Below are positions 18,255 to 28,329 of a stretch of DNA of 28,332 nt, in pieces. Both the position numbers and the translations under genes were made by a program. Under the pieces are notes generated by a model. That model did no database searches. It was given only the letters and a program-made list of their open reading frames with translations, and was not told the DNA's origin. The DNA is from a virus. The DNA lies in the IMG/VR virus record IMGVR_UViG_3300046010_001998, positions 1-28,332 of that record; one strand, given 5' to 3'. The first letter of the stretch is position 1. Each line of letters starts with the position of its first letter.

Positions 18255-20117
18255 TTATCCGCCATTGAATGGGGCTAATGACGCTAGCCCTTCCGGACGA
18301 AGAAACGGATTATCTTGGGGGGCTGCCGGTGGCGGTAAATTTCTGCGCAAGCCGAACACGGTTGCTACTTCTCCACCCCGCCCGGTGTTACCGGTAGTAG
18401 CAGTGGGGGTTAAATCTCCGACAACGTAATTACCGGGCACTGTGTTTGGCGCTCCCGCTACGGATCCCGTTCCGGTGCCTGTGCCCGTTCCGGTGCCTGT
18501 GCCCGTTCCGGTGCCTGTGCCCGTTCCGGTGCCTGTGCCCGTTCCGGTGCCTGTGCCCGTTCCGGTGCCTGTGCCCGTTCCGGTGCCTGTGCCCGTTCCG
18601 GTGCCCGTTCCGGTGCCTGTGCCCGTTCCCCTTTCGGCCCTTTCCTCCGCTCGTTCAGCAGCACCGTAGCCCGCTGTGCCTGTGGTGGACATAAACGTAC
18701 TAAGGGCCGCTTGCTCCCTCGGCGTTAAGGAGCTGAGAGTTCCACCAAACGCATCGCTAATGAAACCTCCGGGGGCCATTCCGTATCCAAGAACACCCGC
18801 GGTCAAAGCGTCTGTCATGTCTCCGCCAGCAGCTAAAGTAAGGCCCGCTCTACCTACGCCTTGACCAAGCGCTGTTCCTAAAAAAGGCGTGGAGGATGAG
18901 GGTGTTCCCGCAAAAGCGCTAGCGTCCGCAAGATAAGCACTACCCCCAGCAATCGCTGCGGCTTTAAGGGCATCCCCCCAATCCGCCCCAGAAGCTCGTG
19001 TAGTAGCCCCAGAAGCGAGAGCGGCTCCCCAAGGACCACCAAAATACGAGCCCGCCGCCGTGAGGGCCGCGTTAACCACCGGATTAGACATTACCTGTTG
19101 GAACTCACTGGGATCATTTTCAGGGTTCCAGTACCCTCCAATTGAGGGACCGTATTTTTGAAGGTCGGCATACGGATTATCGGAATACTTCTTCCTTTTG
19201 GTGCCGTAGGAGAAGTGGGCTTCAAAGTCCCCGAAAGCTACCCTTTGCGGTAGGTTAAACTGTGATCGAATATTGTTTATCTCGTCAGTAAATTCCCGCT
19301 GGTCATATCTTTTATTTCTATAATCCAACCAAGCAAGTTCTGTTTGCTCGTCCGCGGACAGGTACTTTCTTAGATCTTCGTTGTCCGAGTAATACTCGTA
19401 CCATGTTTTTATATCATTGGCTACCTGCGCCCCCTCTCCTGACGGTCGGAAAGGGAGATAAAGATTTCCGATCTGTTCTGGTCGGTTAGTCGCAACATAG
19501 CCCTGGGTTTGGTTTAGTTGAAGCATCTCGCTGTAACCAACGCGCGTTTTACCCGGAGTGGATAGCGGAGCTGCATAGGTAGTGCCATTAAAAATATCAG
19601 TGGCCCCCACCAAGTTGTTCTGTGGGTTTACTACGTAGGAAGCGGCGGCAGGCGAGGCAGAACCACTTCCAGTTGGGGTGGTGTAATCCGCCGTCATTGC
19701 GTAGTTAGGCGAAAGACTCTCGATACCTTGTAAAACAGCCCCCATGTCTACGGAAGTGCCATCAGGCAATACTGTGACTCCGCCATATGCCGCAGGATTT
19801 GGCACATTGTTCCCAACCAGACCGCGACCACTCGCCGTATTTTCCGATTGTCCACGTGCTGGTTGAGGTTGCTGCGCGGCAGCGGGTTGCGCAGCAGCGG
19901 GTTGCGCAGCAGCGGGTTGCGCAGCAGCGGGTTGCGCAGCAGCGGGTTGCGCAGCAGCGGGTTGCTGCGCGGCTGCGATCCGTTGTTTCTCCGTTTCTTC
20001 CGCTAACCGTTTGCGTTCCTGCTCCTGCTGAATTGCCAACAACTCCGCCGGAGTAGGCGGCGCTATGCTTTTCAGCGTAGAAAGATTAGGCAAATTTAGC
20101 GAAAAGTTTGGAATCAT
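18255..20117 (-). CDS. Large low-complexity virion protein, possible ejection protein
   Basis: This 620-residue protein has a short N-terminal segment ([20 protein letters not shown]), a charged helix ([16 protein letters not shown]) and about six Pro-Ala-Ala-Ala-Gln repeats. A globular part follows (residues about 90-330, with [20 protein letters not shown]), then Ala/Gly-rich helices ([20 protein letters not shown], then [16 protein letters not shown]). A run of about 27 Gly-Thr dipeptides precedes the C-terminus. The Ala/Gly helices resemble the amphipathic segments of phage ejection or internal virion proteins, and P22-type ejection genes also lie in the head region. The ATG at 20117 is preferred to a TTG three codons upstream. 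The function is inferred. It ends eight bases before the lysozyme gene. Confidence 0.6.
18466..18630 (-). repeat. 18-bp tandem repeat encoding poly(Gly-Thr)
   Basis: The plus-strand unit CCCGTTCCGGTGCCTGTG is repeated in tandem seven times without change. A 12-base partial copy, one more full copy and a degenerate end follow. It encodes (GT)n. Perfect identity indicates recent slippage or recombination, so copy number may vary between isolates. Confidence 0.92.
19876..19965 (-). repeat. 15-bp tandem repeat encoding Pro-Ala-Ala-Ala-Gln
   Basis: The plus-strand unit GCAGCAGCGGGTTGC occurs five times perfectly after one variant copy. It gives a flexible Ala/Gln/Pro linker near the N-terminus of the 620-residue protein. 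Every unit is in frame. Confidence 0.9.
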
Positions 20118-24458: not shown

Positions 24459-25922
24459 TTAATAATACACCCGCAGCTTAACCGAATTCTCTTTCTCTTC
24501 CCAGTCGTCTGTCGGCAATTGAACAAAGTTACCTTGACGATAACGCATCAGCGCCTGCGTCATACTGTCCACCAAATCGTCATACTCCCCGTTCGGAAAC
24601 GCCGCTACCTCCTCAATCATCTCGTCCGCCCACGTCTCGTCGGGGGCCCAAACCATCCCCGCCTCAAATAACGGCGACACACTATGCACCCGCGATACCT
24701 TGTCGTTCCCACGACTCGGCGTAAAATTCACCACCGGAATCCCCATGTTCCTCAACTCATGTGTCAACGGCATCCCAGATGCCTTCGCCTCCACAATCAC
24801 CGTGTCCGGGGCCCAAAATTTGTAATTGTCCAACGCAATCGACTTCAACTCCGGAAAATCCCATCGCCCCTTCTTACAATCCAACAAAATTAAATTAGGA
24901 CCCGACCCACCCTCGTCCGGATAAAAAACACCCCACGTCGTAATCGCCGAATAGTCACTCGTCTCCCTCTTGGAAAACGCCGTGTCGTAACTCTGGATCA
25001 CATACTCCAACTGCGGAACCTTCTCCCGCATCCAACGACGCCACCACTCCCGCTTGATAATCGCACTCTCTTCACCCGTCGGATTCTGCTGGTACTGCGC
25101 ATTCCACTTCGATACCGGAATAGACGCGCGGACCGCGGTCAAATCCTCCAAGGACCAAAACTCCGGCCAACACGGCGTCCCATCCTCAAAAATAGCCGGT
25201 AACTCCACTACCTCCCACTGATCCGCCAAAGGATCCTTCGCCATCGCACGCAATAACTGACCCGTCATGTCCTTCTCAGACCAACGCGTCTGTACCAAAA
25301 CAATCGATCCCCCCGGCTGCAAACGCTGACGAGGGCCCCCCGTGTACCACTCCCACGCATCCTCAAAGCCCGAATTCGACATCGCCGTCTGCTCAGAATG
25401 CGGATCGTCAATAACAACCAAATCACCACCACGGCCCGCAAGGTTCGATCCCACCCCCACCGCGTAATACATCCCTCCCTTGTTCGTGTCCCAACGACCC
25501 GACGCCTTACTGTCCGCCGCCAGCTTCACCTCCGGAAAAATCTCTCCAAACTCCTCACTCTCAATCAAATTCTTTGTCTTCCTGCCAAAATTGACAGCCA
25601 ACTCCGTCGTGTGCGTCGCCTGAATGATCTTCATCCGCGGATTACGGCCCATCATCCACGCCGGAAACAAATACGACGCAAACTCACTCTTTGTGTGCCG
25701 CGGTGCCATGTTGATGATCAACCGCTTCAACTCACCATTTGCCACCCTTTCCAACTTATCAGCAATAATCTTGTGATGACGGCCCGCGATAAACTCCGGC
25801 CAAACCGTTTTTACGAACGTCAAAAAATTATTTCTGCACCGCTCATTTTTCTCCAACTGCGCTAATCGCAGCTCAAGCTTCAACTTTTTCTCTTCAAGCG
25901 CCAGAGCATCTACTGACTTCAT
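24459..25922 (-). CDS. terL: Terminase large subunit (packaging ATPase-nuclease)
   Basis: The 487-residue protein has an N-terminal helix (residues 1-30) and then a conserved NNFLTFVKTVWPEFIAGRHH segment. A Walker A-like loop APRHTKSE lies at 73-80 and Walker B DLVVIDDP at 167-174, together with a coupling-type VQTRWSEKD at 210-218. The RNase H-like nuclease follows: QSYDTAFSK (Asp313), VIVEAKASG (Glu378) and DDLVDSMTQA (Asp448/449 and Asp452). It cuts and pumps phage DNA into the prohead through the portal. The Walker A has Thr in the position where GKS/T-type loops usually have Gly. I use the ATG at 25922 because upstream sequence in frame is GC-rich and non-conserved. No small terminase gene is recognised in the window. 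Confidence 0.93.
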   Translation of the reverse strand: MKSVDALALEEKKLKLELRLAQLEKNERCRNNFLTFVKTVWPEFIAGRHHKIIADKLERVANGELKRLIINMAPRHTKSEFASYLFPAWMMGRNPRMKIIQATHTTELAVNFGRKTKNLIESEEFGEIFPEVKLAADSKASGRWDTNKGGMYYAVGVGSNLAGRGGDLVVIDDPHSEQTAMSNSGFEDAWEWYTGGPRQRLQPGGSIVLVQTRWSEKDMTGQLLRAMAKDPLADQWEVVELPAIFEDGTPCWPEFWSLEDLTAVRASIPVSKWNAQYQQNPTGEESAIIKREWWRRWMREKVPQLEYVIQSYDTAFSKRETSDYSAITTWGVFYPDEGGSGPNLILLDCKKGRWDFPELKSIALDNYKFWAPDTVIVEAKASGMPLTHELRNMGIPVVNFTPSRGNDKVSRVHSVSPLFEAGMVWAPDETWADEMIEEVAAFPNGEYDDLVDSMTQALMRYRQGNFVQLPTDDWEEKENSVKLRVYY

Positions 25923-25964
25923 CGGGGGCCCCTGCAAAGGTTCCAGAAGGATTGTTACACGGCA

Positions 25965-26066: not shown

Positions 26067-26345
26067 GGCCCTAGCCCCCGTGCACCCGCGCCGGGGGCGC
26101 GGCGCGCGGCGCGCGCGGCGCGATCCGAGGGCCCGCGATCTGACCCGATCGCCGGGGGACCCGGGCCGCCCGGCCCGGACCGGCGGCCTCGGACCGCGAG
26201 CCGTCGCGTCCGAACATCGTCCAGGCATCGCACCGGATCCCACGAATCCGCACCGGATCACACGGCCCTCGGACCACGGACCACGGCCACGGACCACGGT
26301 GGCGGCAGGCGGTAGGTTTAGCCGGTAGATCGAGCGCGGGGCGCG
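26067..26345. other. Very GC-rich non-coding block
   Basis: This stretch is strikingly GC-rich. It contains runs of GGCGCGC, a palindrome CCGGGCCG-CC-CGGCCCGG (26161-26178), two CACCGGATC words, and repeated GGACCAC units near 26269-26299. Open frames cross it on both strands but read Arg/Pro/Gly-rich and are not credible genes. It lies between the terminator of the coiled-coil gene and terL, where packaging or origin sites are often found. No function is shown. Confidence 0.55.
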
Positions 26346-26361: not shown

Positions 26362-26391
26362 CAAAAAAAAAGCGCGCCCGAGGGCGCGCTT
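26362..26391 (-). terminator. Terminator of the coiled-coil gene
   Basis: On the minus strand AAGCGCGCC, a CTCG loop and GGCGCGCTT form nine pairs and are followed by at least eight T residues. It is one of three nearly identical terminators in the right block. Confidence 0.88.
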
Positions 26392-26407: not shown

Positions 26408-26821
26408 CTAGACGTAGTCGAGGGTAACCACGATTTCCCCATCGCGGATCATGTCCCGGACGGACGCGCGGATCTGATCGTCGTCCGGCTCGGATCCAGA
26501 CGCGTCCAGCCGGTCAACCTGCCGACGTAGAAGGCATATGGTCGTCTCCAGCGCGCGCATGGCCGCCGCTTGTTCCTCGGGCGCTGTTTCCAGCGCTTGG
26601 ACCTGAGAATCGAGCATGCGAACCACGTCCTCGAGTTCCGCGCATGCGTCGACCTGCCCGCGTAGGGCTCGGATTTGCTCGTCCTGAGTAAGCACGACCG
26701 ACTCCAAATCGGCGCATCGCGCCTCGACGTGTCGGAGCCGGGAATCGATCAAGCGGGAAAGCGCGTCGGTGACGTCGGATGCGAGAGAGTCGGGAGTGGT
26801 GAGGGAGAGAGGCTGGTCCAT
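26408..26821 (-). CDS. Coiled-coil protein, unknown
   Basis: The 137-residue protein is mostly a long heptad-rich helix (residues about 10-105, with RHVEARCADLESVVL and RQVDRLD). It ends with a short beta-like tail (MIRDGEIVVTLDYV). It contains three cysteines. A longer reading frame reaches 26956, but that extension is translated promoter and terminator sequence, so I use the ATG at 26821. The gene is a self-contained unit with its own cassette upstream and terminator downstream. The last residues resemble the ends of small phage proteins of unknown role. Oligomerisation through the coiled coil is the only confident inference. Confidence 0.75.
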   Translation of the reverse strand: MDQPLSLTTPDSLASDVTDALSRLIDSRLRHVEARCADLESVVLTQDEQIRALRGQVDACAELEDVVRMLDSQVQALETAPEEQAAAMRALETTICLLRRQVDRLDASGSEPDDDQIRASVRDMIRDGEIVVTLDYV

Positions 26822-26840: not shown

Positions 26841-26893
26841 GCCGGGACGTCCCCGGCAGCGCTTACGCTATGCGATGGATCCCATACACGCAA
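26841..26893 (-). promoter_or_regulatory. Promoter/operator/leader cassette, copy A
   Basis: On the minus strand TTGCGT, a 17-base spacer and TAGCGT form a possible promoter. The spacer holds the imperfect inverted repeat TATGGGATCCATCGCATA (26869-26886). Further on, GCCGGGGACGTCCCGGC (26841-26857) contains a perfect GGGACGTCCC palindrome, 22 bases before the ATG. Copy B upstream of the next gene has the same parts at almost the same spacing. Confidence 0.65.
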
Positions 26894-26896
26894 GCG

Positions 26897-26923
26897 AAAA
26901 AAAAGCGCGCCGGAGGCGCGCTT
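26897..26923 (-). terminator. Terminator of the cysteine-rich gene
   Basis: On the minus strand AAGCGCGCC, a three-base loop (TCC) and GGCGCGCTT form a nine-pair stem, followed by a run of T. It begins about 20 bases after the stop codon and precedes cassette A. Confidence 0.88.
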
Positions 26924-26942
26924 GCGGGGCGGGCGGGCGGGA

Positions 26943-27650
26943 TCAGTGCATAGCAATCTGAATCGAGCGCGAGGCAGTGCTGGCGGTCCCCATGCAAGAT
27001 CGGCATTGAGCGCACGTCGTGACCGCGCCCCGTTCCTTGGACGCGGGGCAAACAGCCTCGACCCCCCGGACGTGTTCGAACGCCTTCGCGGTCGTGCGGA
27101 ATGTGCGCCAGCCGCGAGAGTGAGCCAGCGTCATGTCGTCGACACTGTCAGCGCTCGCCATGACCAGCGCCGCCCATGACGCGCCGAGCTTGCGCCATTG
27201 ATGGCTGTAGCCGGTCCAGCCAAGCGCTTTGCGGATCAGGCCGCGCCAGAGCGAGAGCGCAGTAGCGGCCGGGTCACCGTAGGATCCGATTCGCACCATG
27301 CGGCCCGCGCAGATATCTGCAGCCTCGTCGAGTGTGACTCGAGGATACCGGCCGCGCTTGTACGCCTCCCAGATCATCCGCGGCGCTTGCCAGACCAGCA
27401 CATAACAGGACCGCTTCCCGGTGGCCGGGTTGCTGCGGTGTATGCAATCGCCACAAATACTCGCATCGGCCCCCGTGCGCACGGCCTCAACCGGCGGAAT
27501 GTCGGAGCGCAGAATCCACGTCTGCAGCATGTCGCCGGTTTTTTCATTGGCCGTCGCCTCCGCAAGGCCGGTCACAATCACGACAATGGGCTGCCCGTCG
27601 AGGGCGCTCGGCCCCTCATAGATCACGATGCCGTTCGGTTTTCTTGCCAT
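26943..27650 (-). CDS. Cysteine-rich phage/plasmid protein of unknown function
   Basis: The 235-residue protein carries several cysteine groups. DASICGDCIHRSNPATGKRS leads into a further Cys (SCYV), and near the C-terminus CPASKERGAVTTCAQCRSC forms a cluster of four. Between them are conserved-looking stretches AYKRGRYPRVTLDEAADICA, RIGSYGDPAATAL, GWTGYSHQWRKLGASW, MASADSVDD and SRGWRTFRT. I recognise the pattern as one shared by many phage and plasmid proteins of undetermined function. The cysteines suggest a bound metal or Fe-S cluster. GGAG lies ten bases before the ATG at 27650; the upstream extension is translated regulatory DNA. It has its own promoter-like cassette and terminator. Confidence 0.75.
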   Translation of the reverse strand: MARKPNGIVIYEGPSALDGQPIVVIVTGLAEATANEKTGDMLQTWILRSDIPPVEAVRTGADASICGDCIHRSNPATGKRSCYVLVWQAPRMIWEAYKRGRYPRVTLDEAADICAGRMVRIGSYGDPAATALSLWRGLIRKALGWTGYSHQWRKLGASWAALVMASADSVDDMTLAHSRGWRTFRTTAKAFEHVRGVEAVCPASKERGAVTTCAQCRSCMGTASTASRSIQIAMH

Positions 27651-27670
27651 GTATGTAATGCTCCGTCGAT

Positions 27671-27721
27671 CCGGGACGTCCCCGGCACGTGTAGAGTATG
27701 GGATGAATCGCATACCCGCAA
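27671..27721 (-). promoter_or_regulatory. Promoter/operator/leader cassette, copy B
   Basis: On the minus strand TTGCGG, a 17-base spacer and TACTCT mark a possible promoter. The spacer contains TATGCGATTCATCCCATA (27697-27714), nearly the reverse complement of the repeat in copy A. The GGGACGTCCC palindrome (27673-27682) again lies 22 bases before the start codon. Confidence 0.65.
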
Positions 27722-27725
27722 GGGT

Positions 27726-27752
27726 AAAAAAAAGCGCGCCCGAGGCGCGCTT
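27726..27752 (-). terminator. Terminator of the DnaN-like gene
   Basis: On the minus strand AAGCGCGCC, a TCG loop and GGCGCGCTT form nine pairs followed by a T-tract. It lies about 23 bases after the stop codon and just before cassette B. Confidence 0.88.
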
Positions 27753-27758
27753 GAAGTG

Positions 27759-27782
27759 TGACAGGTCGGGCCTGTCAGGCCC
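27759..27782. repeat. Overlapping inverted repeats at the end of the DnaN-like gene
   Basis: TGACAGG-TCGGG-CCTGTCA (27759-27777) and GGGCCTG-T-CAGGCCC (27768-27782) share the CCTGTCA arm and cover the stop codon. The two hairpins are mutually exclusive and precede the terminator on the transcript. Confidence 0.6.
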
Positions 27783-28329
27783 ACGCGGGGCCTGTCGGCA
27801 TCTCGTCGATATCCCGGCGGATCGGCATTACCCACGCGCCGACCTTCCCATCGGCGTCGATCTGCGCATAGCCTACGCCGTTGCCGCCCGGGCGGATGAG
27901 AGTCGGAAAGGCGGTCTTTCCTTGGATCATCCGCGCGGCTGCGTCAACGCGGGCGTGGAATTTCGGATCAAAAAACGCAATCGCGTCGCTTGCCTTGTAC
28001 TTGATGACGCGCCGCCAGTCGGGATAGCGCCCGTCGATCTCGGTCGCAGTGACGTTATCGAACCGCATCGCGTCGAGTTCGAGCATCACAGGCTTGCGCT
28101 TGTTTTTCGCGATAAGTTCGCACACTTCCCCCCCGATGATGTACTGACGCGCGGGGTGCGGCGTCGCGTCGATGCGCGCGACTGCGATAGCGTGACCATC
28201 AGTACCCACCAGAAAAACGCCTTCCGGGCCCGCGTCGACCATGACGCCGTTCAGGACGTAGCGGACGTCGCCTTTCGCTGCGAACGAATTGATCGCCGGG
28301 AAAACGCCGGGGTTGATCTGAATCTGCAT
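27775..28329 (-). CDS. DnaN (beta sliding clamp)-like protein, short form
   Basis: The 184-residue protein has clamp-like motifs in order: RYVLNGVMVD, then GVFLVGTDGHAIAVARID (the 'ATDGHRLA' signature of DnaN), EIDGRYPDWRRVI (the 'GRFPDY' signature), a further domain-like half, and a terminal AWVMPIR resembling the DnaN 'MPMR' end. DnaN is about 366 residues with three domains, so this is about half-length and may form a ring from more subunits or act as a decoy. A clamp tethers DNA polymerase to the template and recruits partners. The ATG lies three bases from the window edge, so its promoter is not visible. It is followed by the overlapping hairpins and its own terminator. Confidence 0.8.
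   Translation of the reverse strand: MQIQINPGVFPAINSFAAKGDVRYVLNGVMVDAGPEGVFLVGTDGHAIAVARIDATPHPARQYIIGGEVCELIAKNKRKPVMLELDAMRFDNVTATEIDGRYPDWRRVIKYKASDAIAFFDPKFHARVDAAARMIQGKTAFPTLIRPGGNGVGYAQIDADGKVGAWVMPIRRDIDEMPTGPAWA

Follow-up and report, generated by a model that had tools for sequence, protein, structure and literature searches.

Since two small genes at the right end of a viral DNA are each preceded by the same arrangement of promoter-like elements, this locus raises the question of what the repeated unit consists of, how far it recurs and what reads it. We analysed the whole 28,332-base virus record (the window), which has its genes on the minus strand, with the structural genes and TerL in the left part and three small genes, A, B and C, in the right part. 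The window TerL is about 90% identical to that of a large set of environmental phages, and the closest annotated phages by TerL identity are HTVC027P (63.5%), 023Pt_psg01 (63.0%) and DSL-LC04 (58.7%). The window comes from a tailed phage whose relatives include HTVC027P and DSL-LC04. The DNA of the right block showed weak or no similarity to phages and plasmids; gene A had relatives only in the contig L005 and in two weak matches, and the relatives of gene C were too distant for use in comparison.

Two cassettes in the window

The features of the right block are listed below; the -35 boxes were read from the sequence and promoter calls were consensus-based.

26370-26391, minus strand: intrinsic terminator of gene A
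26408-26821, minus strand: gene A, 137 aa, coiled-coil-like
26841-26857, minus strand: cassette A 5'-leader stem-loop, GCCGGG-GACGT-CCCGGC, beginning at predicted +2
26865-26870, minus strand: cassette A -10, TAGCGT, overlapping the operator by 2 bases
26869-26886, minus strand: cassette A operator, TATGGGATCCATCGCATA, PWM 19.5
26888-26893, minus strand: cassette A -35, TTGCGT
26903-26923, minus strand: intrinsic terminator of gene B, first element of cassette A
26943-27650, minus strand: gene B, 235 aa, phrog_2554 (unknown function), E=4e-72
27671-27685, minus strand: cassette B 5'-leader stem-loop, CCGGG-GACGT-CCCGG, beginning at predicted +2
27693-27698, minus strand: cassette B -10, TACTCT, overlapping the operator by 2 bases
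27697-27714, minus strand: cassette B operator, TATGCGATTCATCCCATA, inverted half-sites TATGSGA at an 11-bp step, PWM 22.4
27716-27721, minus strand: cassette B -35, TTGCGG, 17-nt spacer checked
27732-27752, minus strand: intrinsic terminator of gene C, first element of cassette B, 9-bp stem then TTTTTT
27775-28329, minus strand: gene C, sliding-clamp-like

We found that both cassettes hold a terminator, a TTGCG -35, the 18-bp inverted repeat TATGSGATNNATCSCATA, a -10, the GGGACGTCCC element and the gene. Minus-strand reading gives TTGCGG-G-TATGCGATTCATCCCATA-CTCT for copy B and TTGCGT-G-TATGGGATCCATCGCATA-GCGT for copy A. A sequence-only reading of this DNA had described the same -35, 17-base spacer and weak -10 before both genes, and these were found as stated. 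It had also placed a palindrome exactly 22 bases before both start codons, and GGGACGTCCC, which occurs exactly at only these two places in the window (27673-27682 and 26844-26853), lies 22 bases before the ATG at 27650 and the ATG at 26821. The two inverted repeats, said to be almost reverse complements of each other, agree in this way at 89% over 19 nt. The repeat was, however, described as held by the spacer; it is present in both copies but reaches past the spacer into the first two bases of the -10. When up to 3 mismatches were allowed, 0.26 matches to the operator pattern were expected in the window compared to the 2 found, each with zero mismatches.

A and B have weak -10 boxes, and both promoters score below the threshold of the consensus scan. 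The spacing is 17 nt in every unit, within the 16-18 nt of sigma-70-type promoters, and a TTGCR -35 is also kept in the DUF932 promoters of relatives. Genes A, B and C each end in an intrinsic terminator. Because each unit begins with the terminator of the preceding gene, the repeated unit is terminator-promoter-operator-leader; the elements of the promoter-operator-leader unit proposed earlier are all present, but the unit opens one element before them. The promoter of gene C would lie beyond the contig end.

The arrangement had been described as a duplicated cassette. The window does hold two copies, but the cassette is not limited to two, and we found at least six units in the phage group of the window: A, B and four more before other genes in the contigs L004, L005 (near-identical to L003) and L185. 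Searches of viral contigs with the whole cassette and with the TTGCG-operator pattern matched only L003/L005 and L004, and wider relatives were therefore reached via proteins. The third unit, in L005 (L005:735) and L004, has a leader that reads GGGGCGTCCC, in which the DNA palindrome is broken and the RNA stem CCGGG/CCCGG retained. L004 and L185 carry a DUF932 unit with the half-site as a direct repeat. The unit at L185:4308 has the perfect promoter TTGACA-17-TATAAT with the operator in the same register, and the sixth unit (L004:870, L185:2519) has tandem half-sites at 10-bp steps.

The gene upstream of gene B is the clamp-like gene in the window (27775-28329) and three small unrelated genes in L005/L004 (L005:100-1460). 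This difference in neighbours suggests that close phages exchange whole cassettes.

Operator sites in related phages

Absence of the motifs upstream of other genes in relatives had been named as a result that would speak against the shared arrangement. We found that the motifs are present there: across the HTVC027P-like phages, further copies of the operator lie in the TerS-TerL segment. In 680 kb around related TerL genes the window-derived operator (no more than 2 mismatches) gave 17 sites, whereas 40 permuted half-sites gave 0.475 on average and never more than 4. Thirteen of the 17 are intergenic, where 9.5% of the sequence is intergenic (p=8e-11). With a PWM trained on the window group and the TerL relatives, 78 loci selected by DUF932 (574 kb) gave 73 sites at PWM >=15 and shuffles gave 0; a few contigs are common to both sets, so the independence of the two tests is partial.

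The downstream targets are TerS, a coiled-coil gene, DUF932, DUF7227/phrog_2554 and TerL. Gene A occupies the position of the operator-bearing coiled-coil genes of relatives, and gene B also belongs to phrog_2554. Relatives of gene B in phages outside this family have no operator, which suggests that the cassette belongs to the phage lineage and not to the gene.

The operator unit is the 7-bp half-site TATGSGA, which occurs either in inverted pairs with an 11-bp step or in direct pairs with a 10-bp step. Direct pairs were found in 41 of 54 DUF932 promoters, and their only spacings were 10 (50 cases), 20 (9 cases) and 14 (2 cases). The operator occupies the spacer in the window group and, in many relatives, immediately follows the -10, 22-23 nt downstream of a TTGAC -35. 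Despite this shift it overlaps the core promoter in all arrangements. As the moving site always covers the core promoter, we infer that a repressor fits better than an activator. The ribbon-helix-helix (RHH) protein omega binds direct repeats much as it binds inverted ones (PMC5016525), and the pairing rules found here point to RHH-like behaviour of that kind.

Other features were seen near these sites. The TerL start codon is directly preceded by a palindrome of the GGGGCCCC type (window 25920-25935). Many relatives have one there too (AGGGGCCCCTATATGG type), and a half-operator ATCGCATA often lies upstream. In relatives (L185-L262, L075-L153; for example L119:5368-5447 and L196:4091-4168) the loop of the upstream intrinsic terminator contains the -35 box TTGACx. 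This was the case for 27 of 42 operator-linked terminators compared to 7 of 214 other terminators, and thus terminator and promoter share sequence in these relatives.

The leader stem-loop

In all six units of the window group the leader stem begins at predicted +1 or +2, whereas a 6-bp stem starts within 1 base of a random position in 1.8% of cases. The stems are GCCGGG or CCGGG, CGCTGG, CGTCGG and GTCGGG, which are four unrelated sequences. The predicted +1 positions of cassettes B and A are 27686 and 26858 on the minus strand. The DUF932 leaders of relatives likewise have a stem right after the promoter, with a widely variable sequence. Among 16 alignable DUF932 leaders 96.9% of pair cells were kept and 17 double changes were seen compared to 5.0 after shuffling, so that compensatory changes are found in this 5'-terminal RNA stem-loop; one stem geometry was used for this count, since an alignment of all DUF932 hairpins mixed geometries. 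On average 54 leaders fold better than dinucleotide shuffles (mean z -2.9). Because the pairing covaries and the leaders fold better than shuffles, the hairpin is an RNA feature in the family. Taken singly, the window-group hairpins have no exceptional stability compared to shuffles (z -0.5 to -1.7), and for this group the case therefore rests on position and recurrence. An Rfam scan of the window gave no match.

GGGACGTCCC had been read as a DNA palindrome. The element is present, but it is better read as the RNA stem-loop CCGGG-GACGT-CCCGG, since GGGGCGTCCC keeps the stem only, other units hold unrelated hairpins and the leaders covary.

It is known that a 5'-terminal stem-loop can slow 5'-end-dependent decay via the access of RppH and RNase E, and the leader of E. 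coli ompA is such an mRNA stabiliser. Like the ompA leader, the leaders described here have a stem-loop no more than 2 bases from the predicted 5' end followed by an unstructured RBS; unlike it, the stem-loop is reused across several phage genes, and its protective role is putative. Stem-loops and 5' UTRs are known protectors of mRNA (PMC7509114). The leader stem-loop is most likely a 5'-terminal mRNA protector.

The leader could instead be an attenuator or an RNA-protein operator, which we consider a serious but clearly less probable reading. In marine relatives a U run comes after the stem of the DUF932 leader, as in a terminator, but the window-group units have none. The GCTGCCGGGGGCGTCCCGGC stem-loop recurs without a promoter before another ATG (L005:1027), which favours this reading; the loop and stem sequence, however, varies between units, unlike that of a protein-binding RNA operator. 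The promoterless GCTGCCGGGGGCGTCCCGGC copy is a 20-nt identical copy of the leader stem-loop, found at L005:1027-1042 and L004:3570-3585, where it lies at the end of one gene and directly before the ATG of the next.

A candidate regulator and its rivals

An RHH protein of 52-65 aa, MDTTRWKSILVPREVYEEIKELSKAEGRTIGGQLRLVFEWYKE, is encoded after polA in the records G001-G005, G007, G008 and G010, as well as in numerous further loci. Profile matches were to Arc (pArc, E=8.6e-6), AvtR, Mnt and CopG, and the Pfam RHH_5 match (2.6e-5) falls just under the Pfam cut-off. The AF2 model, at a modest pLDDT of 75.5, has helices at 13-26 and 30-57, and its top match in a fold search was the Arc-operator complex 1par, at a weak E of 0.06. 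Profile and fold agree in placing the protein in the RHH class. Within the 28-kb fragment no RHH gene was seen, and that of the window's own phage would lie outside it.

In 39 non-redundant RHH promoters we found TTGCATA-N3-TCCTATA over the -10, a degenerate direct pair of the half-site whose conservation partly reflects the -10 itself. Such a pair over the gene's own -10 would be expected under putative autoregulation. Nine records of the RHH lineage contain 25 half-site pairs compared to about 1 by shuffling, and there are 0 pairs in HTVC027P, 023Pt_psg01, DSL-LC04 and HTVC023P, in which the RHH protein is divergent or none was found. A site at PWM >=15 was present in 24 of 80 RHH loci, which are short, with the RHH gene kilobases from the TerS-TerL segment. 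The correspondence varies among single records: G005 and G007 have the RHH gene and few or no 18-bp sites, G008 has no strict half-site pair, and in G003, despite several 18-bp sites, the RHH protein is divergent and there is only one strict pair. We know of no TATGSGA half-site for Arc, Mnt, CopG or omega proteins, and a literature search found no RHH repressor of a phage that uses direct repeats in early promoters. From its class, its conservation, its own promoter and its co-occurrence with the sites, the most likely binder is nonetheless this phage-encoded Arc-like RHH protein. The sequence-only reading had held that the shared copies imply one regulator. This gains indirect support from a motif that lies over the core promoter before many unrelated genes family-wide, forms no regulon in the sampled bacterial genomes and is accompanied by a conserved RHH protein of the phages.

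The same operator regulon could have another binder, namely an HTH_23/KorA-like protein, TerS or an unrecognised phage protein, and this we regard as unlikely. G001, G002, G007 and G008 share a conserved 65-aa HTH protein that has a match to phrog_836, late activator-like, but nothing links it to the half-site. It ranks below the RHH protein because in G003, which bears operator sites, the primase and helicase genes adjoin each other and no HTH gene was found in between. TerS is universally conserved, and an operator can stand at its gene; against any binder of another class, the direct and inverted 10/11-bp pairing suits RHH dimers better. The HTH_23/KorA-like protein lies between the primase and the UvrD helicase in several relatives (L162:14015-14212), and the DSL-LC04 gene at this position is annotated 'RNA polymerase sigma-G factor'.

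Other readings do without a phage regulator altogether. Palindromes of 18 bp in promoter spacers are common targets of host regulators, which would favour an operator bound by a regulator of the phage's bacterial host. However, the motif is constant over phage contigs from 38 to 61% GC, and a scan of 84,980 bacterial species genomes for TTGNNNGTATGSGATNNATCSCATA gave 5 scattered matches, approximately the chance number, and no regulon, which makes a host regulator quite improbable. That the sites are packaging (pac) sites for the small terminase and not operators is suggested by their concentration between TerS and TerL, but it is very improbable given that they lie in promoters at set distances from the -35, the -10 and the start codons and that a degenerate pair occurs in the RHH promoter near polA. 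We give hardly any credence to A and B as a recent segmental duplication without shared regulation: both copies do have a 17-nt identical hairpin segment and similar terminators, but the operator halves differ by reversal while the spacing is kept, and unrelated units of relatives have the same architecture with different hairpins.

We propose that each unit would be a self-contained expression cassette of terminator, sigma-70-type promoter, operator, 5' stem-loop, RBS and gene. A dimeric phage repressor, most likely the Arc-like RHH protein encoded after polA, would bind TATGSGA pairs and block RNA polymerase at all cassette promoters and its own. As the repressor accumulates the TerS-TerL accessory genes would be turned off together, and the 5'-terminal stem-loop would most likely guard these short mRNAs of single genes against 5'-end-dependent decay, letting the product of the open interval persist. 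Taken as a whole, cassettes, RHH repressor and protective stem-loop are probably the correct explanation. More tentative, and to us plausible rather than probable, is the full combination of a portable terminator-promoter-operator-stem-loop cassette before single accessory genes, one Arc-like repressor that reads the half-site both ways and a temporal shut-off, in a lineage whose annotated relatives show no integrase and whose sister phages have the -35 in the terminator loop.

The candidate regulator resembles P22 Arc, Mnt, CopG and omega of pSM19035 in that it matches Arc by profile and, weakly, by fold, and as with omega the half-sites are paired about one helical turn apart, direct or inverted (PMC5016525). 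Unlike those of Arc, Mnt, CopG and omega, the predicted sites are dispersed over many single-gene promoters and not gathered in one switch region. In this they are like the stoperators of mycobacteriophage L5 (cluster A), many of which are scattered in promoters and short intergenic gaps. The L5 stoperators are 13-bp, asymmetric, monomer-bound and orientation-dependent (PMC9283540), whereas the sites here are paired half-sites over core promoters; since they are inverted or direct TATGSGA pairs and not asymmetric 13-mers, this is not a stoperator system of the L5 type. The system resembles dispersed-operator repressor regulation with a regulator that, by sequence, would be Arc-like. The HTVC023P-type pelagiphages HTVC027P and 023Pt_psg01, as well as DSL-LC04, are about 58-62 kb with a similar gene order and, unlike the window lineage, have no operator pairs.

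A study of 80 genomes of this phage group does not mention promoters (PMC9599517), and gene control in these widespread, abundant and barely studied environmental phages is essentially undescribed. With the motif, spacing rules, target genes and a candidate repressor of 52-65 aa named, the regulon is testable with two or three constructs. The cassettes are also compact, insulated expression units that come with natural variants of operator arrangement and leader hairpin.

Two further observations concern the window itself. Its GC content steps from about 54% to about 64% between TerL and gene A (window 26101-26200), in a gap that holds a 100-base stretch at 86% GC, and this composition junction is also present in L005. 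A 623-aa protein contains a long run of Gly-Thr dipeptides (window 18446-18694) encoded by a short tandem DNA repeat, a tract that is possibly variable in length.
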